Assembly: GCA_028279625.1 (NCBI GenBank)
Contig: JANQNM010000079.1
Location: 1-43,252, forward strand
Direction of reading: 5' to 3'
Length of the DNA stretch: 43,252 nucleotides
Source: Candidatus Nitrosopumilus sp.
Lineage (GTDB): Archaea; Thermoproteota; Nitrososphaeria; Nitrososphaerales; Nitrosopumilaceae
Shown in pieces: positions 8,111 through 42,035 of the stretch (positions are counted from its first letter, which is position 1; each line of letters begins with the position of its first letter). The position numbers and the translations under genes were made by a program. The notes below the pieces were generated by a model, which saw only the letters and a list, made by a program, of their open reading frames with translations, was not told the DNA's origin and made no database searches.

Positions 8111-8128
8111 TGCTCCCATCGGGATTTG
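8111..8128 (-). repeat. Distal attachment-site copy: 3' end of tRNA-Glu
   Basis: TGCTCCCATCGGGATTTG, identical to 41961-41978 inside tRNA-Glu. Confidence 0.85.
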
Positions 8129-19078: not shown

Positions 19079-19483
19079 ATGGCAGACATTTTCACTCCGA
19101 AAAAAAGATCTTGGGTGATGTCCAGAATCAGGGGAACCAACACAAAAATTGATTTGCAAATGAATGAAATTCTCAAGGGCTTGGGATTTGCATATAGCAT
19201 GTATCCTAAGATGAAGGGAAATCCTGACTTTATACTTGAGGAACAGCGGATTGCAATTTTCTGTGACGGTGATTTTTGGCACGGATACAATTATCAAAAA
19301 AAGAAAAAACCATCAAAAAAATACTGGAGAGATAAGATAGAGACTAACATGGAAAGAGACACACGAATCACTCGGAAACTGAGAAGAGAAGGCTGGTCCG
19401 TTCTAAGATTTTGGGAGCATGACATTGAAAAGAGGACTGGAGTGTGCATTGACAGGATTATTGGAAAGATATTGGAGAAATGA
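19079..19483 (+). CDS. vsr: Very short patch repair endonuclease (Vsr)
   Basis: MADIFTPKKRSWVMSRIRGTNTK...KGNPDFILEEQRIAIFCDGDFWHGYN...IETNMERDTRITRKLRREGWSVLRFWEHDI. Confidence 0.93.
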   Translation: MADIFTPKKRSWVMSRIRGTNTKIDLQMNEILKGLGFAYSMYPKMKGNPDFILEEQRIAIFCDGDFWHGYNYQKKKKPSKKYWRDKIETNMERDTRITRKLRREGWSVLRFWEHDIEKRTGVCIDRIIGKILEK

Positions 19484-19978: not shown

Positions 19979-20021
19979 AAAATCAGGACTCAAGTTTATT
20001 GGGATTTGAACTAAAGACAGA

Positions 20022-20150
20022 ATGCTTTATGAGGTTCATCTGCAAAATGGGAATATGTTCATAGAGTGTATCTGTACATGTTCCGACAAATGCAAAGATG
20101 GCTGTAAATGTAGTTGCAAAATTGGATGTAAATGCAAGTATGAAAACTAG
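20022..20150 (+). CDS. Metallothionein-like Cys-rich mini-protein (42 aa, 9 Cys)
   Basis: MLYEVHLQNGNMFIECICTCSDKCKDGCKCSCKIGCKCKYEN*; CxCxC and CxC clusters; stop overlaps next gene in ATGAAAACTAG. Confidence 0.75.
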   Translation: MLYEVHLQNGNMFIECICTCSDKCKDGCKCSCKIGCKCKYEN

Positions 20151-20697
20151 AAACAAAATCATAATCATTGCAGTTTTATTGTTTGTAATTCTTGATTTGC
20201 CTTTCTTTACCTCAATAACTGTAATTCATGATGTAATTCAAGTTTCTCATATCTTGCATTTTTGGAGTATTCCAATTGATACCCAAGTGACTGGAATAAA
20301 ACCAACATATCATGTAGGTGAGCAAATCAAGTTTACCGTATCTCACTATAACTTTGGCTACTATCAGGAATACCCGCAATATGAAATCTCAAAGGAAAAC
20401 GACAACATGCCGATAATTAATGGCGGTATGACAAATGATGGTCTTCATTATGGTCCCTTTACTGTTTTGACTATTTGGCCTGGCAACTGGCAAATTCATG
20501 AATACCGTGAAGACTACCTTGTAGACGAGAACGGGAACAGAGTTGACACAAAACCAACAGAAGGTTCTTGGAATACTGTCTCAGAGACAAAACCGATTTC
20601 ACTAGATGAACCTGGCAAGTATGCATTGCATGTTTACACAATGATACGAAATGGTGAAATTTCAATTCCTTTTGAGGTAATAGAAAATGAAAACTAG
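20140..20697 (+). CDS. Secreted/membrane hypothetical, cassette protein (MKTR...ENEN)
   Basis: MKTRNKIIIIAVLLFVILDLPF signal/TM; ends VIENEN*; ATG at 20140 preferred over ORF-track 20098. Confidence 0.75.
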   Translation: MKTRNKIIIIAVLLFVILDLPFFTSITVIHDVIQVSHILHFWSIPIDTQVTGIKPTYHVGEQIKFTVSHYNFGYYQEYPQYEISKENDNMPIINGGMTNDGLHYGPFTVLTIWPGNWQIHEYREDYLVDENGNRVDTKPTEGSWNTVSETKPISLDEPGKYALHVYTMIRNGEISIPFEVIENEN

Positions 20698-20698
20698 A
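20683..20698 (+). repeat. Gene-junction repeat GAAAATGAAAACTAGA
   Basis: Exact 16-mer; near-exact copies at 20139-20151, 20939-20953, 21754-21770, 22692-22707, 23794-23809. Confidence 0.85.
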
Positions 20699-20932
20699 CT
20701 TTTGGTAATTATCGGAATTGCATTGATGGTTGGTGGGTTTTCAGCAGTGATTTATTCGTCATATGTTCTGCTCCCTCCAGTTGAGCCGCCAGTGATGAAG
20801 CAAATGGAAGGGTTAGACTATGTTTTGTTAATGTACAAACAGGCATTTTTGCTCAATGGCATAATTGGAATATTTGTAACTGTGGCAGGAGTTGTTTTGT
20901 TTTGGAAAGAGAAAACCAGAAAGCAGACATGA
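20687..20932 (+). CDS. Small two-TM membrane protein, cassette protein (MKTR...)
   Basis: MKTRLLVIIGIALMVGGFSAVIYSSYV...GIIGIFVTVAGVVLFW; after its TGA the frame continues EKENEN*. Confidence 0.75.
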   Translation: MKTRLLVIIGIALMVGGFSAVIYSSYVLLPPVEPPVMKQMEGLDYVLLMYKQAFLLNGIIGIFVTVAGVVLFWKEKTRKQT

Positions 20933-20974
20933 GAAAAAGAAAATGAAAACTAGGCTTTATCACCAATACTAGAA

Positions 20975-21349
20975 TTATTTTCCATCCCAAGTACATGTAT
21001 CATGATTAAATGAGTGAGTGCTGTTTTCGATTTTTTTATCAGGCGCAAACCCTCCAGGAGTACAAAACTCAACGTACGGGTTTAGATCAGAACCTTGGCT
21101 TTCTTTGGGAACATTACAACCTGCAGCCTTGGCTCTTCCTATCTGACTATTTTCTGGCGTCCAATAATCATTTGCACCATCTTTTCGTAGAATTTCAGCA
21201 CAAGACATTTCATTCATCTCTAGTCTTTCAAGTTCTGCATTGGGAAATACTATGTTGAACTTATACACTAATGCAACTGAAAAAATCAAACTTGCTGAAA
21301 CTAAACATACTATTGGAATAATCCAAAAACGAAGAGCATCCTCTTCCAT
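20975..21349 (-). CDS. Membrane-anchored hypothetical protein
   Basis: 124 aa, N-terminal TM then Cys-containing region. Confidence 0.65.
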   Translation of the reverse strand: MEEDALRFWIIPIVCLVSASLIFSVALVYKFNIVFPNAELERLEMNEMSCAEILRKDGANDYWTPENSQIGRAKAAGCNVPKESQGSDLNPYVEFCTPGGFAPDKKIENSTHSFNHDTCTWDGK

Positions 21350-21523
21350 GATGTGATATAATGGATACTCTATTTATTGGCTTGAATTTTGACTCACTAT
21401 AAAAAGACGAAACATGCAAATAACCACAATTCTATTATTTTCAAAATTGTATCAATCTGTTTTGTCTAAAATTTGATGTGATCGATTCGAATTCTTTATG
21501 AGCTTCCCAAATTCATTTGATAC

Positions 21524-21757
21524 ATGAATGTGTATGTAAGAAAGGAAGTTCAGGCATTTGAGTATGTTTCTTTTACTGAATTCAAAAAAGAAAAAGATTT
21601 GGAGTTTTGTTGTGAGAAATTTAGAAAATATTGTGCAATAGTCGGTTCTTGGAGTGACAAAATAGGCAAATTCTCATTAGTTGAAGATAACAAATTGATA
21701 CCAATTGATTATTGTCCTTTTTGTGGGGAGAAAATAGAATACATTACTGTGGAATAA
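21524..21757 (+). CDS. Small protein with C-terminal CPFC motif
   Basis: 77 aa; IDYCPFCGEKIEYITVE*; frame continues NEN* after its TAA. Confidence 0.6.
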   Translation: MNVYVRKEVQAFEYVSFTEFKKEKDLEFCCEKFRKYCAIVGSWSDKIGKFSLVEDNKLIPIDYCPFCGEKIEYITVE

Positions 21758-21758
21758 A

Positions 21759-22706
21759 ATGAAAACTAGAATTTTACCTGTATTTGTTATTTCATTTATT
21801 TTGTTTGTTCCATTATTTGCCGAAAGTGTAAGAATTCCAGTTTCTAATGACGAATTGTTTGATTATCATGATTTTATTGTTCTTGGCAATATCTATGATG
21901 TAAAAATATCTGGCCAATTCATTGAATATCATATTGATATTGAGGAATTAGTAAAGCCCGATTCTTTTGGGAACGATTCTGTTATTGCGTTAGGATGTAA
22001 CCCAAATAATTCTAGAGTGGGCGGTGGTTGCCCTGTCTATGAAGAAGGTCAAAGAGGCTTGTTCTTAATATCAGAACGTGATGGGGAACTTTACTTAGGC
22101 GAGTCTCGTGTTTTAGATGTAAAGTGTACTGCACAAGAGTTTCTCTCATCCTACAGAGGACTAAAACCTAACATGCTTTTGACGCAAGACGGGCAGTCTG
22201 ATGTATTTTTTACAGGAAAACCCCTTTTCATTAATTACGTTGTAGATAACTTGAATATGACAAAATATGATTATTTTGTAAAACTAGGATCACACAAGAG
22301 CGGCATTAGTCCCTTTAGTTTTTCTGAAGTTGTAAATGGAACTATGCCTGAATGTAAAAGATTTGAAACAGTTAACGTCTTTTTTGTACCCACCATAATG
22401 GGCACATATGGTTTTAGCTCAGATTATGACACCGGTAGCTTTAGCTTTTACGGAATTGCAATCATTGATCATGGAACAAATCCGCGACAACAAAGTGATG
22501 CCGGAATCAAAGCACAAGACATTTGGTGTAAGGAGAATCTGTTTTTGATACTAAAAAATGACAACACCAAAGCTCGCTATGACAACCATCCTGCATGTGT
22601 TTCAAAAGACACTATTCCAAAACTAATCGAGCGTGAGTGGGGATATGTTCCTCAAGAAAGCAAATACGATGAATTTCTTGAAGAGAGTATGGAAAATGAA
22701 AACTAG
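21759..22706 (+). CDS. Secreted hypothetical, cassette protein (MKTR...ENEN)
   Basis: MKTRILPVFVISFILFVPLFAES signal; ends SMENEN*. Confidence 0.75.
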   Translation: MKTRILPVFVISFILFVPLFAESVRIPVSNDELFDYHDFIVLGNIYDVKISGQFIEYHIDIEELVKPDSFGNDSVIALGCNPNNSRVGGGCPVYEEGQRGLFLISERDGELYLGESRVLDVKCTAQEFLSSYRGLKPNMLLTQDGQSDVFFTGKPLFINYVVDNLNMTKYDYFVKLGSHKSGISPFSFSEVVNGTMPECKRFETVNVFFVPTIMGTYGFSSDYDTGSFSFYGIAIIDHGTNPRQQSDAGIKAQDIWCKENLFLILKNDNTKARYDNHPACVSKDTIPKLIEREWGYVPQESKYDEFLEESMENEN

Positions 22707-22845
22707 AACATTGATAATAATTGCAATAATCATCCCTGTTGCAGGATTTACGATCTACACGTCAGGTGCATTTACTCCATTACACTCAGATCTCTCAGAA
22801 TGTTACTACACTGATGGCCAAAGCAATACCCCCAACCATGCATAA
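22696..22845 (+). CDS. Short (possibly truncated) cassette protein
   Basis: MKTRTLIIIAIIIPVAGFTIYTSGAFTPLHSDLSECYYTDGQSNTPNHA*. Confidence 0.6.
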   Translation: MKTRTLIIIAIIIPVAGFTIYTSGAFTPLHSDLSECYYTDGQSNTPNHA

Positions 22846-23004
22846 TTGTAGATGGATGGTATGACATGTTGCAAGAATCCTCAATAAAGATGATACATCT
22901 TGAATTAGTACAAAATTTTGAGTAGTGTTTTCAATAACGCCTTATCGTTTTCATTTTTTGTACTCAGCGTCATGTTTAATAAAAAAACAACTACTGCCAT
23001 TACT

Positions 23005-23808
23005 ATGCTCAACAAAAAAATTATTTCAGTAATTGCCATAATCATTATAATTGGAATTAGTTTAGCTGCTGTTGATTTATTTTCTAACACTGAATCTCAA
23101 TCGCTAGTCGTAGAGGACTCTGATACACTAAAAATAACTGGAAAATACGCCAAAGAAATTTGTAATGTGATAGAAACTCCTTGTCCTGAAAATGTAGAGT
23201 TTGATGGTACTGCTGGACCAAATAATTCCGTTGAATACAAGTATGCCAGCAAAAAATCAATTTATTATTTTAAGATATTAGACCAACAACTAGAATTTAT
23301 GGGGAAAAAATTTGTTGATGGGGAATGGCAAGTTGTTGCTGATGAGTGGACTGTTTTGATAAACGGAGATGACTCATACCCTATAGAAACATTTTCTGAA
23401 ATTACATTTGAGAATGATTATGATGAATATGGATTAAAAATTAACTTTGTAGAACTAAGAGAAATTTTCCCAAACAATTCGGTGCCTAGATATGACACAC
23501 AACATACTGCAACTGTTGATAAGAATTCCATGTATACCGTAGTTAGCGAAATTCAAAATCGAGATGATATTGAAAAGGATTTTTTCTATGAAGTGATACT
23601 TGTTGCACCCAATGGAGATGTTGAAACATCTAAGGATAAGGAAACTATCTTACCTTATGATACAATGTTAGTTGATTCAGGAGGAAGTAGAATGTATCCT
23701 GGAGAATACGCAGTTGAAGTGTATCTTTATGAGCATCGTAGTGTACGTGATCAAGCAATACCTGTCTCCCAAGTTTGGTTTCTAGAAGAAAAAGAAAATG
23801 AAAACTAG
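23005..23808 (+). CDS. Membrane-anchored hypothetical protein ending EKENEN
   Basis: MLNKKIISVIAIIIIIGISLAAVDLF anchor; ends EEKENEN*. Confidence 0.7.
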   Translation: MLNKKIISVIAIIIIIGISLAAVDLFSNTESQSLVVEDSDTLKITGKYAKEICNVIETPCPENVEFDGTAGPNNSVEYKYASKKSIYYFKILDQQLEFMGKKFVDGEWQVVADEWTVLINGDDSYPIETFSEITFENDYDEYGLKINFVELREIFPNNSVPRYDTQHTATVDKNSMYTVVSEIQNRDDIEKDFFYEVILVAPNGDVETSKDKETILPYDTMLVDSGGSRMYPGEYAVEVYLYEHRSVRDQAIPVSQVWFLEEKENEN

Positions 23809-24142
23809 AGTTCAAACCTATTGGAGTTCAGACATGCAAACTTGTTAGGATTCGAATGTTGAGTCTAAAGGGACGTGTACTTTTCTGGGTTTTAATTTAG
23901 ACCCATTTTGTGCCTAAAAACCAATACTCGTAAAACGATGATTGGTCTATGAGCCACAACTGAGAAAATTAGTAACTTATTTGAATTTTAAAAATTCTCG
24001 GAGAACTTTGGCTGCACCAGAATGATCACATGCCTCTAACCTGTCAATTAGGTAAGAATCATTCAGATTCGAACCAAAGATTAGGAAAAGTCTAGAACAT
24101 ACGATTATCATTAGCACTTGTTTTTGGAATTCGTTGAAAGAG

Positions 24143-26942: not shown

Positions 26943-29375
26943 ATGAAAGGATCGGAAACAAAACAAAATGCAAAGACTGTCTTAAAAATTGGAGGAATGC
27001 ATTGCGCTGGTTGTGTGAATATTATTCAAAACAAACTATCTGAAACTCAAGGTGTTGAAAAATGTGAAGTAAACTTGGGTTCTGAAAAAGCAGTTTTAGA
27101 ATATGATCCAGAAATAACAGACATTACAAAACTTGAGAATGCAATAAAGAGCACTGGATACAAAGTTGTTTATGAAAAATTTACTCTGTCGATTGAAGGA
27201 TTATCTGATTCAAGCGATGCTCATCAACTTGAAAAGAAACTCAAATCTATTCTTGGCATAAAGAATGCATCTGTAAATTATGGAAACTCTCAAGCCATTA
27301 TTGAGTACAATTCTGTATTGCTGTCTCTTGCAGATATTAGAAGATGCGTTGAGGATTTGGGCTACCACATTGTTAGTGAAGATATTTCCTCTTCTGCAGA
27401 AGAGATAGAAGCCAAAAAAACTAAAAAATTACTTGTAATTGGTACTCTCTTTAGCATTCCAATAATCTTGTTTGGTCATTTTGGTGCTCACTATCTATCC
27501 TTGCCGCTGTCAGGAACTCCTGAGAGTGTCTACATTTCTTTTGCATGTGCAACTATCGTCCAATTCTTTGTAGGGAGAAGGTTCTATGTTGGTGCATTCA
27601 AGATTGCAAAGATGAAATCTGCAAATATGGATACATTGATAGTTTTAGGAACAACTTCTGCATTTGTCTTTAGTGTATACCATACATTTCCAACTGTAGT
27701 CTTTGAGCATATCCATTATAGTGCAACTGCCATGGTTATTACGTTCATTTTACTTGGTAAATTCCTTGAAAATAAAACAAAAGGAAAGGCATCTTCTACA
27801 ATCAAAAAACTACTTGAACTTCAACCAAAGGTTGCACTTGTCAGAAAAGATGGTGTTGAATCTGAAGTCCCAGTTGAATTATTACAACAAGGAGACGTTG
27901 TAATAGTAAAACCTGGACAAAAAATTCCCGTAGACTCTGAAATAATTGATGGTGTATCAACTGTTGATGAATCTATGGTAACAGGTGAATCTGTACCTGT
28001 CACAAAAAAGACAAACGATTCTGTAATTGGTGGAACAGTTAATCAAGAAGGCTCTCTTACTATCAAGGTTTCAAAAACAGGAAGTGAATCCTTTCTATCT
28101 CAAGTCGTCTCATTAGTTGAAGATGCCATGGGCAAAAAACCTGCACTGCAGCAGATTGTCGACAAGGTTGCAGGGAGATTTGCATTTGCAGTAATGGGTA
28201 TTGCACTTGTGACTTTCATCTCGTGGATGATAGGTGTACCTGGAGAGACTATGACTGCACTAATTCCAACTGTAGCTGTTTTGGTTGTTGCATGTCCTTG
28301 TGCATTAGGTTTGGCAACTCCTACTGCGATAATGGTTGGTATGGCAAAGGCTGCACAAAATGGTGTCATTTTCAAGGGCGGACCTAGCTTGGAATTATTA
28401 TCTAAAATCAACACAATTGTTTTTGATAAGACAGGAACATTAACTGAAGGAAAACCAAAAGTTACAGATGTTATTACCGTAAATGAAATTGCAGTTGTTG
28501 GTGGAAACACTTCAAACAAAAATTCACTTTTAGAGATTGCTGCATCCGTCGAAAGAAAATCAGAACATCCTCTTGCTCGCTCTTTGGTAAACTACGCAAA
28601 AGAAACTGGAGTTACAATCAATGAACCTTCTATGTTTGTTTCTGTTTCAGGAAAGGGCGTCAAAGCAAAATATAGAGATCAAAACGTTATGGTCGGTAAA
28701 AAAACTATGATGGAAAAAGAAGGAATCAGTTTAGACAAAGTTTCAGAGCAAATTCATCAATTAGAAAATCAGGGAAAGACAATCTCACTTATTGCTATAG
28801 AAAAAGAACTTGCAGGAATCATTGCGTTTTTAGATACTCCAAAACCCTCTGCAAAACTTACAATCAAACACCTAAACGAAAAAGGAATTGAAGTAATCAT
28901 GCTTACAGGAGATAATGAACTTACAGCATCCACTATTGCAAAAGATATTGGAATTAAGAAAATTCTTGCAAATCTTATGCCTTCAGAAAAGGTTGATGCA
29001 ATTGTCAGTCTTCAAAAAGAAGGAAAAACTGTGGCAATGGTTGGAGATGGAATCAATGATGCTCCTGCACTCTCGCAGTCTGATGTAGGAATTGCAATTG
29101 GCAGTGGTACTGACATTGCCCTTGAGTCAGGAAATGTCGTATTGGTTCGTGATAACCTTGTTGATGTATTATCTGCTATCGAAATAAGCAAGAAAACACT
29201 TAGAAAAATTAAACAAAATTTGGTCTACGCCTTTGCATACAACACTGCACTTATCCCAGTTGCAGGCTTTGGCCTGCTTTATCCAGCATTAGCTGGATTG
29301 GCAATGGCTGCAAGTTCTGTTTCTGTTGTATCCAGCTCATTAATGCTCAAACGTTGGAAACCAAAATTTAGCTGA
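26943..29375 (+). CDS. copA: Copper-type P1B ATPase with two HMA domains
   Basis: MHCAGCV HMA domain plus a degenerate second HMA; CPCALGLATP, DKTGTLTEGKP, GDGINDAPALSQSDVGIAIG, SEHPLA. Confidence 0.95.
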   Translation: MKGSETKQNAKTVLKIGGMHCAGCVNIIQNKLSETQGVEKCEVNLGSEKAVLEYDPEITDITKLENAIKSTGYKVVYEKFTLSIEGLSDSSDAHQLEKKLKSILGIKNASVNYGNSQAIIEYNSVLLSLADIRRCVEDLGYHIVSEDISSSAEEIEAKKTKKLLVIGTLFSIPIILFGHFGAHYLSLPLSGTPESVYISFACATIVQFFVGRRFYVGAFKIAKMKSANMDTLIVLGTTSAFVFSVYHTFPTVVFEHIHYSATAMVITFILLGKFLENKTKGKASSTIKKLLELQPKVALVRKDGVESEVPVELLQQGDVVIVKPGQKIPVDSEIIDGVSTVDESMVTGESVPVTKKTNDSVIGGTVNQEGSLTIKVSKTGSESFLSQVVSLVEDAMGKKPALQQIVDKVAGRFAFAVMGIALVTFISWMIGVPGETMTALIPTVAVLVVACPCALGLATPTAIMVGMAKAAQNGVIFKGGPSLELLSKINTIVFDKTGTLTEGKPKVTDVITVNEIAVVGGNTSNKNSLLEIAASVERKSEHPLARSLVNYAKETGVTINEPSMFVSVSGKGVKAKYRDQNVMVGKKTMMEKEGISLDKVSEQIHQLENQGKTISLIAIEKELAGIIAFLDTPKPSAKLTIKHLNEKGIEVIMLTGDNELTASTIAKDIGIKKILANLMPSEKVDAIVSLQKEGKTVAMVGDGINDAPALSQSDVGIAIGSGTDIALESGNVVLVRDNLVDVLSAIEISKKTLRKIKQNLVYAFAYNTALIPVAGFGLLYPALAGLAMAASSVSVVSSSLMLKRWKPKFS

Positions 29376-29403: not shown

Positions 29404-29520
29404 TTACTTTTTATTTGCTGCACAGTTGCAATCAGGACCACAGGTACATACGCCTGTACTACTACATTGACAACCTGCGTCTATGCAACCTTCGCTGTTC
29501 ACTGAACATCCACAAGACAT
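29404..29520 (-). CDS. Metallothionein-like Cys-rich mini-protein (38 aa, 9 Cys)
   Basis: MSCGCSVNSEGCIDAGCQCSSTGVCTCGPDCNCAANKK*; adjacent to the copper ATPase. Confidence 0.8.
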   Translation of the reverse strand: MSCGCSVNSEGCIDAGCQCSSTGVCTCGPDCNCAANKK

Positions 29521-29680
29521 ATTCTTACTATGCAAATCTCCTATTTAACAAATTATTATACTTCTCATTTATGAATACTAGAATTCCTTCTTAGTTTGGC
29601 AACTGTACCAGTTTTTCTAGAAATTTTAAAAAATTTGATTTCGCATCTAACTATAATAATCATAAAACGAAATAAGAAAT

Positions 29681-31090
29681 GTGAGTGAACAAAAAGAAAC
29701 ATCTGTTACAAAAAAAACATTGGTGTTTATTTTATTTGGTTTGTTCTCTGTAATTTTTGTAGGTGTGATTTTTTCATTTACAACTGAGCTTAGTCCTGAA
29801 GCTAGTCAAAATTACACTTTTTCATCTTGGTTAGTTCTTGCATATACTGCAGGACTTTCTATGATTATACTTCCGTGCACTCTTCCTTTTGTTTTCATGA
29901 TCGTTCCAATGACTGTGAATAAAGGATTGAAAAGAGGATTGTTAACTGCATCTTTGTTTGGTGCAGGTCTTATCACAACATTGACACTTTATGGAGGAGG
30001 ACTTGCATATCTTGGGCAAATTACAGGTATCAATACATTATCGACTTGGTTGATGTTGGCTGCAGGAATTATCACTTATGCATATGGTCTTCATAGAATT
30101 GGTTTGGTAAAGATTCCAACCCCATCTTACTCTGGCACTCCTGGCTTTATGAAAAATCGAGGTGACTTTTCTAAAACATATCTTATGGGAGTTTTGGTGG
30201 GTAATGCAGGGGTTGGATGTACTAATCCTTTGTTCTACTTGATGTTGTTTTACATAATGGGTTCTGGTGATCCAATTTCAGGAATTTCACTTGGTTTTGT
30301 TCATGGTGTTGGCCGAGCAATTCCATTGGTTTTAGTTGCAATACTTGCCATCATGGGATTTAATCCAACAAAGGGATTGATTGCAAAGAGACAAAAAATT
30401 GAAAGAGCAAGTGGTTATCTTCTTATCATAATTGGTTCATTTTTGATCATAAATTCTACCAATGAAGGACAAGCTTGGTACATGAATACTGTTTTGCATA
30501 CTGTTTGGAATGATATTGTTGATGCAACAGGAATGTCTGAAAATTTGAAAATCTTCATGATGCCTGGAGTAGATCATTCCAAAATGGGACATGAAAGTGT
30601 ACCTTCTGATGCCCTAATCAAACTAACATCTCAAGAAGATTGGCGTGTCTACTTTTGGTGGGAGCCTGGGGGAGTCATTGGTGTTGACAAATCAAATGAC
30701 TTTAACATGATGTTTCATGAACCTATTACAAACATCATGCTTGAGAATGTAAAGTATGACATGACTGTTTATCTCAATGGCGAACTTTTAGATTCCAAAC
30801 AGGGATTATTTACTGAGACTGGACATGTAGTACATACAATGACATTTCCTGAAAGAGGTTCTGCAAGAGTTTTGATACATAATATTGATGGAGAAACTAC
30901 CCAAGCAACATTTTCATTTCAAGTAGCTCCTGAGGCAAAATCTATCTATAGAGAAGGTGGCACTCAATTTCTATTTCCATTAGAAATGGTTCCTGTGTTT
31001 ACTGCATTAATGATTGTAATACCTATCGTAATCTCAAAAGTTAAGAACAGGACACAGGAAGGTTCAACTGAGCTAATTTCTAACAAGTAA
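29681..31090 (+). CDS. CcdA/DsbD-like transmembrane protein with extra C-terminal domain (GTG start)
   Basis: AYTAGLSMIILPCTLPFVFMIVPMTVNKGLKRGLL...LVGNAGVGCTNPLFYLMLFYI. Confidence 0.75.
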   Translation: MSEQKETSVTKKTLVFILFGLFSVIFVGVIFSFTTELSPEASQNYTFSSWLVLAYTAGLSMIILPCTLPFVFMIVPMTVNKGLKRGLLTASLFGAGLITTLTLYGGGLAYLGQITGINTLSTWLMLAAGIITYAYGLHRIGLVKIPTPSYSGTPGFMKNRGDFSKTYLMGVLVGNAGVGCTNPLFYLMLFYIMGSGDPISGISLGFVHGVGRAIPLVLVAILAIMGFNPTKGLIAKRQKIERASGYLLIIIGSFLIINSTNEGQAWYMNTVLHTVWNDIVDATGMSENLKIFMMPGVDHSKMGHESVPSDALIKLTSQEDWRVYFWWEPGGVIGVDKSNDFNMMFHEPITNIMLENVKYDMTVYLNGELLDSKQGLFTETGHVVHTMTFPERGSARVLIHNIDGETTQATFSFQVAPEAKSIYREGGTQFLFPLEMVPVFTALMIVIPIVISKVKNRTQEGSTELISNK

Positions 31091-40503: not shown

Positions 40504-40579
40504 TTGAAAAAAGATAGAGTGTGAATTTTTTATAAATTATTTCGGATTTTTTATAAATTAAATTTTTTATAAATAATTC
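40504..40579. repeat. AT-rich box, copy 3 (rearranged)
   Basis: TTGAAAAAAGATAGAGTGTGAATTTTTTATAAATTATTTCGGATTTTTTATAAATTAAATTTTTTATAAATAATTCTAG. Confidence 0.75.
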
Positions 40580-41916
40580 TAGTTTGTAACAATACTATTT
40601 GGTTTGTTTTTTGTGTATTCTATTTTATCAAAAATATCCTCAAAGTATTCTTTTAGGTATTCATCAACAATTGATTTCAAGTCTCCGTAACCTTTGTTGT
40701 CGTTCTCAAGCTTGACTTGCCTTTGCTCTAGGATCTTGATCTTTTCTTCTAGTTGCTTCTTTTCATTGTTCTCTTGTTCTTCTTTCTCTATTGCAGTCTT
40801 CAAACTTAGAGGCTTTCCGCATTTGGTGCAAAGTTTGGCATCATAGGAGTTTGGCAAATCACAAATTTTGCAGATTCTCGGCTTGTTGACCAAATCTTCT
40901 CCTTTGGCACTTGATATTCCATAGTGCTTGAACATGGCCTCCTCAACGTCAGAATTCATCATGTGCTCGTATCTTCCAGGCATCTTTGAACCTGATGACC
41001 ATCCGTATCTCTTCTTTTGTAATGACTCTGTTAGAAACATTCCTGTCTTTGTTGCACCAGTATGGCGGAATAGATTTGGCCAAACTCTTTTGTGGATTTG
41101 TGCAACATCGCAAATTCTCTGCAATCTCTTTCTCATTGCATGATATGACCAAGCTTGTCCAAATTTTTTCTCATCCATTGCAATCCATAGTGGTGATTCA
41201 GGATCAGAATTATTTGGATGCTTGTCAAAGTATGACGCCAAGTCTGGTACACATTCAATTACTCTGACTGGTCTTGGGCCTGTTTTACCATCAACTACAA
41301 TAACTGCTCCTCTGTCATCAAACTTTACATGTTTAATTTGACGACTCAGGATTTCTCCTGGTCTGCAAGCCAAATCTGAAAATGTGTGAACAAATGCTCT
41401 GTCTCTGAGATTCTCGCCACATGCTTTGAGCAATGAGTTCTTTTCAGCTTCTGTGATAAGCATATCTGCAGTAAGATTCTCTCTAGGTTTTCTGATTCTA
41501 ATCCAAGAAGTCTCTGTTGGATCCCCTACTTGTTTTTGGTCCCTTGAACCACGCTTCATCCATCTGTAGAAATTTTTTAGAATTTTTTTGTGGTCTGAAG
41601 TCGTGTTTGTTTCTTGTCCACCTTTGCTGAATTTCTTGTTAAAATTATACACTAATTCTTCAATATCTTCTTTGCCTGTATTTTCCCAATCTTTGTTTAG
41701 CATTCTTGAAAGAGAAAGTAAAGTTACAAGAATCTTTGAGCGTCTTGCATCAGATAATGATTCGTTTACCAAGACACGGTCAAATTTTTTGATTAATCTT
41801 ACATTATTTTCATTCAGGTCTTTTTGCATCAATGCAAAGGTTCTGGTGATGATTCTGTCATAGTTGTACAATCTGATCGAGTTTGAATTTGAGGCTGAAA
41901 TCTGCTGTTTTGACAT
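40579..41916 (-). CDS. Tyrosine recombinase/integrase with C-terminal zinc ribbon and coiled coil
   Basis: DLACRPGEILSRQIKHVKF, NLFRHTGATKTG, MPGRYEHM; CKICDLPNSYDAKLCTKCGKPL; next to tRNA-Glu. Confidence 0.9.
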   Translation of the reverse strand: MSKQQISASNSNSIRLYNYDRIITRTFALMQKDLNENNVRLIKKFDRVLVNESLSDARRSKILVTLLSLSRMLNKDWENTGKEDIEELVYNFNKKFSKGGQETNTTSDHKKILKNFYRWMKRGSRDQKQVGDPTETSWIRIRKPRENLTADMLITEAEKNSLLKACGENLRDRAFVHTFSDLACRPGEILSRQIKHVKFDDRGAVIVVDGKTGPRPVRVIECVPDLASYFDKHPNNSDPESPLWIAMDEKKFGQAWSYHAMRKRLQRICDVAQIHKRVWPNLFRHTGATKTGMFLTESLQKKRYGWSSGSKMPGRYEHMMNSDVEEAMFKHYGISSAKGEDLVNKPRICKICDLPNSYDAKLCTKCGKPLSLKTAIEKEEQENNEKKQLEEKIKILEQRQVKLENDNKGYGDLKSIVDEYLKEYFEDIFDKIEYTKNKPNSIVTN

Positions 41917-41960
41917 TCTTGCATATAATAGACAAGGGGGGATTTAAACCAGAATGATAG

Positions 41961-42035
41961 TGCTCCCATCGGGATTTGAACCCGAGTCACTGCCTTGAGA
42001 GGGCAGTATGCTTAACCGGACTACACTATAGGAGC
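41961..42035 (-). tRNA. tRNA-Glu (CTC)
   Basis: Minus strand GCTCCTATAGTGTAGTCCGGTTAAGCATACTGCCCTCTCAAGGCAGTGACTCGGGTTCAAATCCCGATGGGAGCA; cloverleaf stems pair. Confidence 0.94.

Follow-up and report, generated by a model that had tools for sequence, protein, structure and literature searches.

Described gene-cassette and variable-gene systems

The locus described here is an array of short genes joined by a recurrent 11-bp sequence, ATGAAAACTAG, within a 43,252-nt stretch of DNA of a Candidatus Nitrosopumilus sp. (GenBank assembly GCA_028279625.1, contig JANQNM010000079.1; the whole stretch is hereafter termed the window). Several described systems resemble it in part. Integrons and clusters of attC sites lacking integron integrases (CALINs), including those of archaea, carry tandem, same-strand and apparently promoterless cassettes that are mostly of unknown function, shuffled and laterally transferred (PMC9668308). 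The VARTIG modules of Thermococcales are likewise archaeal loci, in which an upstream gene is followed by ever-changing downstream genes that are exchanged between species by an unknown mechanism; they involve immunoglobulin (Ig)-domain proteins and a diffuse region of ~600 nt, with no defined junction reported (PMC8416519). In the Vpma system of Mycoplasma, of the vsp/vsa type of surface-lipoprotein switching, recombination sites also lie at the 5' ends of genes (-72 to -1 of the start codon), and Xer1 from the locus inverts DNA, with one gene switched on per cell (PMC2268961). The integrated mobile elements of thaumarchaea, or cryptic integrated elements (CIEs), move as a block at att sites, and integron counterparts in this group could not be excluded and might await discovery (PMC6563490).

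The window array is one of many exchanged cassette arrays in the marine ammonia-oxidizing Nitrosopumilaceae, which hold dozens of unrelated exported-protein genes. By contrast to integrons, no attC hairpin, attI or IntI was found in the searches made, crossovers fall in a core that covers the start codon of one gene and the stop of the gene before it, and the cassettes encode almost only exported proteins. Unlike VARTIG modules, the arrays have a precise 11-bp junction that bounds unrelated genes and have no upstream Ig-domain gene; no Ig-domain family was detected among 69 cassette representatives. Unlike Vpma genes, the units are in tandem on the same strand and are exchanged between species, and no local recombinase in common was found. 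The window array sits in an integrated element of the thaumarchaeal kind (tRNA-Glu target, tyrosine integrase), but whereas such an element moves as a block, the cassettes move singly at ATGAAAACTAG. In the open-access literature we found no paper that treats the core in such a sense and none on such arrays. We conclude that this is a gene-cassette system unlike bacterial integrons.

Shuffling and exchange of units at the core

Comparison of genomes shows, at the level of sequence, discrete units, their core, breakpoints, scrambled gene order and lateral transfer. Breakpoints were analyzed in 119 loci (1.10 Mb) with 277 ATGAARACTAG sites, by counting the ends of blastn alignment blocks that fell within -10 to +19 of a core. 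The loci were selected by the exact core, which biases counts of exact sites and leaves the breakpoint, neighbour and wobble comparisons unaffected; cassettes were called mechanically as open reading frames (ORFs). Block ends at the core made up 21 of 54 (39%) at identities of at least 90%, 13.4% at 80-90% and 8.4% at 60-80%, compared to 0.9-1.3% for random positions. In ~30 alignments inspected at the level of single bases, identity was found to begin at or just before ATGAAAACTAG and to stop at ATGAAAACTA(G). One 700-bp unit was detected in four contexts, two of them in genome G011 and one each in G056 and G055; its copies are 95-97% identical and lie between unrelated sequences on either side. 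In addition, a 999-bp insert present in G055 and absent from G005 has each of its edges at ATGAARACTAG.

Gene order was similarly scrambled at the core. A gene of 77 amino acids (aa) in the window (21524-21757), termed an anchor, has close homologues in 10 further genomes; in all 11 it stops just 5' of a core and is followed by a different gene. Across the loci, the downstream neighbour was kept in 0 of 52 homologous gene pairs at core junctions versus 27 of 157 at non-core junctions. For an empty-site comparison at the window locus, the radical-SAM neighbour was searched against the other 95 Nitrosopumilus genomes, and nothing matched it at E<=1e-150. The first-pass annotation, made from the window sequence, had proposed that a common start/stop overlap joins unrelated units and lets them recombine at the junction; the linkage of unrelated bodies by cores was found to extend across loci, and the block ends, the four contexts of one cassette and the loss of every neighbour at core junctions agree with recombination there.

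Anchors are short Cys-rich proteins. A second such gene (66 aa), located 3' of a helix-turn-helix gene, was observed with changing downstream genes between genomes (L046, L050, L057 and L061; fam5 and fam21).

Cassettes were more similar between species than were the rpoB regions of the same genomes. Array blocks reached 97.4% identity between G011 and G055 (rpoB region 86.5%), 98.1% between G055 and G046 (85.0%), and 91.8% between G038 and G134, a genome of another genus (86.2%). In general, cassettes were 95-98% identical between species where rpoB was 85-90% identical, and 91-92% identical between genera. A 1162-bp block shared by G055 (L050:10650-11811) and G046 (L071:8013-9174) at 98.1% identity has ends that are not at an exact core.

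Distribution and nucleotide conservation of the core

The extended 15-mer GAAAATGAAAACTAG was found in ~156 clustered copies in 38 of 96 Nitrosopumilus genomes, with no match for the reversed control, and at the family level in 57 of 252 genomes and 7 of 22 genera (control, 2 matches). When 85,488 species were scanned with a longer form of the core, 14 stretches were detected, all of Nitrosopumilus, Nitrosarchaeum or unclassified thaumarchaeal or archaeal metagenome-assembled genomes. The sites are dense, with 15-18 in each of three regions of 35-50 kb, and in the tabulated loci those of one array are all on one strand. The first-pass annotation had pointed to a search of thaumarchaeal genomes, and together with the genome scan these counts indicate that the junction 16-mer does not occur as often out of phase or at other places.

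Conservation of the core is at the level of DNA and not of protein. Variants with a different Thr wobble base (GAAAATGAAAACVAG, where V is A, C or G, giving ACA, ACC or ACG) were matched only 19 times across those 96 genomes (reversed control, 8), versus ~156 for the ACT form, such that the Thr wobble is nearly fixed. Core variants such as ATGAAGACTAG are present within loci. Carriage of arrays by viruses was considered and rejected: a 17-mer search of IMG/VR gave 27 matches, all single, in phage-like genes and outside any array context.

Stop phases and content of the units

The sequence TAGAAAATGAAAACTAG presents TAG at -6, TGA at +1 and TAG at +8, a stop in every frame, and all three are used. 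Among gene pairs, the upstream gene terminates at +8 in 49 cases (gap -11), at +1 in 50 (gap -4) and at -6 in 24 (gap +3); those of the -4 class have tails such as WRKRK after a C-terminal membrane segment. The ENEN ending is thus one of three readings. Any incoming unit is therefore terminated and the next gene restarted, irrespective of frame. At L001:3843-4721 (minus strand), a membrane protein was observed to run without a change of frame into a cassette start at L001:4259 (MKTRYKIIIGVSIPAV...; ESKP-MKTRYKIIIGV), as expected if a unit had joined in an open frame.

A unit extends from one ATGAAAACTAG to the next. Its start, ATG AAA ACT AGA, encodes MKTR, the charged beginning of either a signal peptide or a membrane anchor at the N-terminus; its body is an otherwise unrelated exported protein; and its end comprises (T)AGAAA and a ribosome-binding sequence resembling GGAG, ahead of the next core. 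A GGAG(A)-like sequence was found ~12 nt 5' of the start. The units look promoterless, as a leading gene or a leader precedes them and the gaps are -11, -4 or +3 nt, and translation may be coupled across the core.

A hydrophobic N-terminal segment was predicted for 99% of 196 core-start genes versus 33% of the other ORFs in the loci, and 29% of core-start genes have a C-terminal hydrophobic segment as well. Among the 69 representatives of different families, only MKT(R) is common, with a mean column identity of 6%, in agreement with the earlier description of the bodies as unrelated and not full-length paralogues. Six Pfam families were matched by one representative each (DUF192, DUF6438, ammonium transporter, BNR, DUF4367 and DUF4362); WING-49 was found in seven representatives, amicyanin was also among the families matched, and PADLOC gave no match among the representatives. 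Some units encode zinc-finger proteins that lack a signal peptide (L022:1505 and L074:2858), indicating that what the units have in common is the core rather than the signal peptide.

Organization of the window array

Six exact copies of ATGAAAACTAG are present in the window, all on the plus strand within 3.7 kb, with none on the minus strand. The features of this region are as follows.

19990-20047, plus strand: leader or promoter-like element, inverted repeat GTTTATTGGGATTTGAAC then CTTTATGAG; matches the leaders of further arrays in a profile search (E=7.8e-4)
20022-20150, plus strand: Cys-rich metallothionein-like ORF, 42 aa, leading gene of array 1; ends YEN-stop in core 1
20140-20150, plus strand: core 1, ATGAAAACTAG
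20140-20697, plus strand: cassette 1 (MKTRNKIIIIAVLL...), predicted exported protein, 185 aa; ENEN-stop in core 2; no match in Pfam or NCBIfam
20687-20697, plus strand: core 2, ATGAAAACTAG
20687-20932, plus strand: cassette 2, predicted protein with two transmembrane segments, 81 aa; family members elsewhere have different neighbours
20943-20953, plus strand: core 3, array-terminal, 9-aa stub
20975-21349, minus strand: convergent membrane protein, 124 aa, at the array end; homologues are convergent at array ends in L038 and L043
21524-21757, plus strand: anchor gene, Cys-rich CPFCGEKIEY protein, 77 aa
21759-21769, plus strand: core 4, ATGAAAACTAG
21759-22706, plus strand: cassette 3, predicted exported protein with WING-49 domain, 315 aa; ENEN-stop in core 5
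22696-22706, plus strand: core 5, ATGAAAACTAG
22696-22845, plus strand: cassette 4, 49-aa ORF (MKTRTLIIIAIIIP...), probably a truncated remnant
23005-23808, plus strand: predicted exported protein without core start, 267 aa; ENEN-stop in core 6
23798-23808, plus strand: core 6, array-terminal; its 16-aa stub enters an inverted-repeat element, GTTCAAACC...GGATTCGAA

When the 16-mer was allowed up to 3 mismatches, 13 matches were found in the window versus 2.4 expected by shuffling (shuffle maximum, 7), a test that the first-pass annotation had proposed. The 1.47-Mb genome holds 13 exact 11-mers: the 6 of the window, 4 in a second array (contig C60) and 3 that are single. In the C60 array, a zinc-ribbon protein ends QNEN-stop in the first core and the next gene ends KIENEN-stop in the second; the in-frame fusion at L001:4259 is a further unit of this array.

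The MKTR ORFs that follow the six window cores are, in order, 185, 81, 9 (stub), 315, 49 and 16 (stub) aa in length, such that three cores open genes of 80 aa or more, one opens the 49-aa remnant and the other two are trailing sites without a gene ('empty'). At 20140, 20687, 22696 and 23798 the upstream ORF (YEN or ENEN) takes its stop from the core TAG; the ORF upstream of core 20943 terminates 13 nt before it, and that upstream of core 21759 terminates at a TAA at -4. The recurrent start/stop junction reported in the first pass thus stands, with six exact copies on one strand, whereas its ENEN ending is not the universal upstream reading. The early stops had been taken for decay of an ancestral ENEN junction; the use of all three stop phases across loci, and an anchor gene that ends before the core in every genome, speak against this.

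The array lies within an integrated element.

8111-41978: integrated mobile element containing the array, 33.9 kb; 18-bp direct repeats (8111-8128 and 41961-41978) are identical to the tRNA-Glu 3' end
40579-41916, minus strand: tyrosine integrase of the element, adjoining tRNA-Glu(CTC) at 41960-42035

No tRNA-att element was found around seven other array regions that were searched; the integrated element is thus one vehicle and not the rule. Its cargo looks copper-related by sequence (P-type ATPase, 26943-29375; DsbD-like protein, 29681-31090; Cys-rich protein, 29404-29535). A Vsr-type mismatch endonuclease (Pfam E=9e-22) is encoded at 19079-19483, just 5' of the array. The leader element, an inverted repeat GTTCAAACCTGTATGGATTTGAAC then GATTAGAACACTTTATGA, recurs 5' of numerous genes as well as where arrays begin or end (window 19990-20047, L018:1107-1186, L056:5839-5918 and L067:2493-2417) and is possibly a promoter plus a regulator site. 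The predicted fold of the anchor protein had a mean predicted local distance difference test (pLDDT) score of 59.5, which is too low for a structure search.

Recombination at the core and alternative explanations

We consider it probable that these loci are laterally exchanged gene-cassette arrays of Nitrosopumilaceae, in which promoterless exported-protein units recombine within the 11-bp start/stop core without an array-specific integrase and diversify the cell surface. The genome comparisons show that crossovers within the core insert, remove or replace entire units. The core would act as a universal adapter: whatever the upstream frame, it would end it, let translation begin anew and supply the start of an exported protein. 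Incoming DNA may be exchanged by general recombination or by recombination at short homologies, for which integrated elements would be one vehicle, and the exchange may diversify the cell surface, with viruses or competitors as possible targets of such a defence. Short-homology recombination at the core would be our first choice of mechanism and a dedicated enzyme the second. Several points weigh against this proposal. RadA-type homologous recombination would have only 11 bp to act on, a very short length, and a site-specific enzyme could also account for such precise breakpoints. Other recombination acts too, as about half of the high-identity block ends lie away from any core, and the genomes compared are one per species. 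A more general formulation, that the arrays are a new archaeal cassette class whose start/stop junction, which begins the signal peptide, is the recombination core used by some recombination activity to assemble and exchange exported-protein operons, is held tentatively.

Somewhat unlikely, in our estimate, is a dedicated but unrecognised site-specific recombinase that acts on ATGAAAACTAG, perhaps with cassettes as circles, in an integron-like manner with a different enzyme and site. Such an enzyme would account for crossovers inside the 11-bp core, its exact nucleotide conservation, the one-insert difference between G055 and G005, and the trailing empty sites at array ends, which insertion of a site plus unit predicts. 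The array-bearing genomes, however, have no common recombinase family among those searched. A tyrosine recombinase was rejected as the array enzyme, as PF00589 proteins compared among these genomes split into several groups with none in common; G005 and G055 have one PF00589 protein each, and these two belong to different groups and match over only 104 aa at 28%. Genomes G003, G008 and G028 lack core sites as well as PF00589 matches. No serine recombinase (PF00239) was found in 17 genomes. Furthermore, the junctions have just 11 bp in common, with no inverted arms, hairpin or excess folding stability (minimum free energy -8.3 versus -8.9 for the control), variant cores work too, and there are many arrays per genome without a fixed insertion platform.

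It is improbable that the core is kept only as a good translational-coupling and start sequence, with units moved otherwise and the core merely marking gene ends. This explanation is consistent with a core that combines a start codon, a stop codon and a signal-peptide start downstream of a GGAG-like sequence, and with products that are almost all N-terminally hydrophobic. It does not agree with the rarity of synonymous variants that would preserve MKTR, with identity that starts and stops at the core base by base, or with geneless stubs that retain the core, although this retention is in part due to the selection of loci by exact match. Tandem duplication and divergence of a single paralogous family, suggested by the common MKTR(L)LIII start, is very improbable and is refuted by bodies that have only MKT(R) in common, match different families or none (DUF192, Amt, amicyanin and WING-49) and include zinc-finger proteins without a signal peptide, and by the shuffled order. 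A classical (archaeal) integron or CALIN array, which the tandem same-strand promoterless cassettes and their lateral transfer call to mind (PMC9668308), has a negligible probability, as the attC core pair (RYYYAAC...GTTRRRY) was found at 0 of 150 junctions, folding was not in excess, and of the ten integrases scanned, which were encoded close to arrays or elsewhere in genomes that have them, the best scored 34.7 bits versus the 265-bit cut-off for an integron integrase.

Implications

The arrays behave like a thaumarchaeal counterpart of the integron but with a different kind of site. A defined site renders the process testable and may be of use for the capture of unknown surface proteins, and the core may offer a natural template for assembling genes independently of frame. 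Few organisms of the ocean are as abundant as the Nitrosopumilus-type archaea, and unexplained genes make up much of their flexible genome. The junction accounts for how part of this flexible genome is built, with exported-protein genes as modules that have standard ends.

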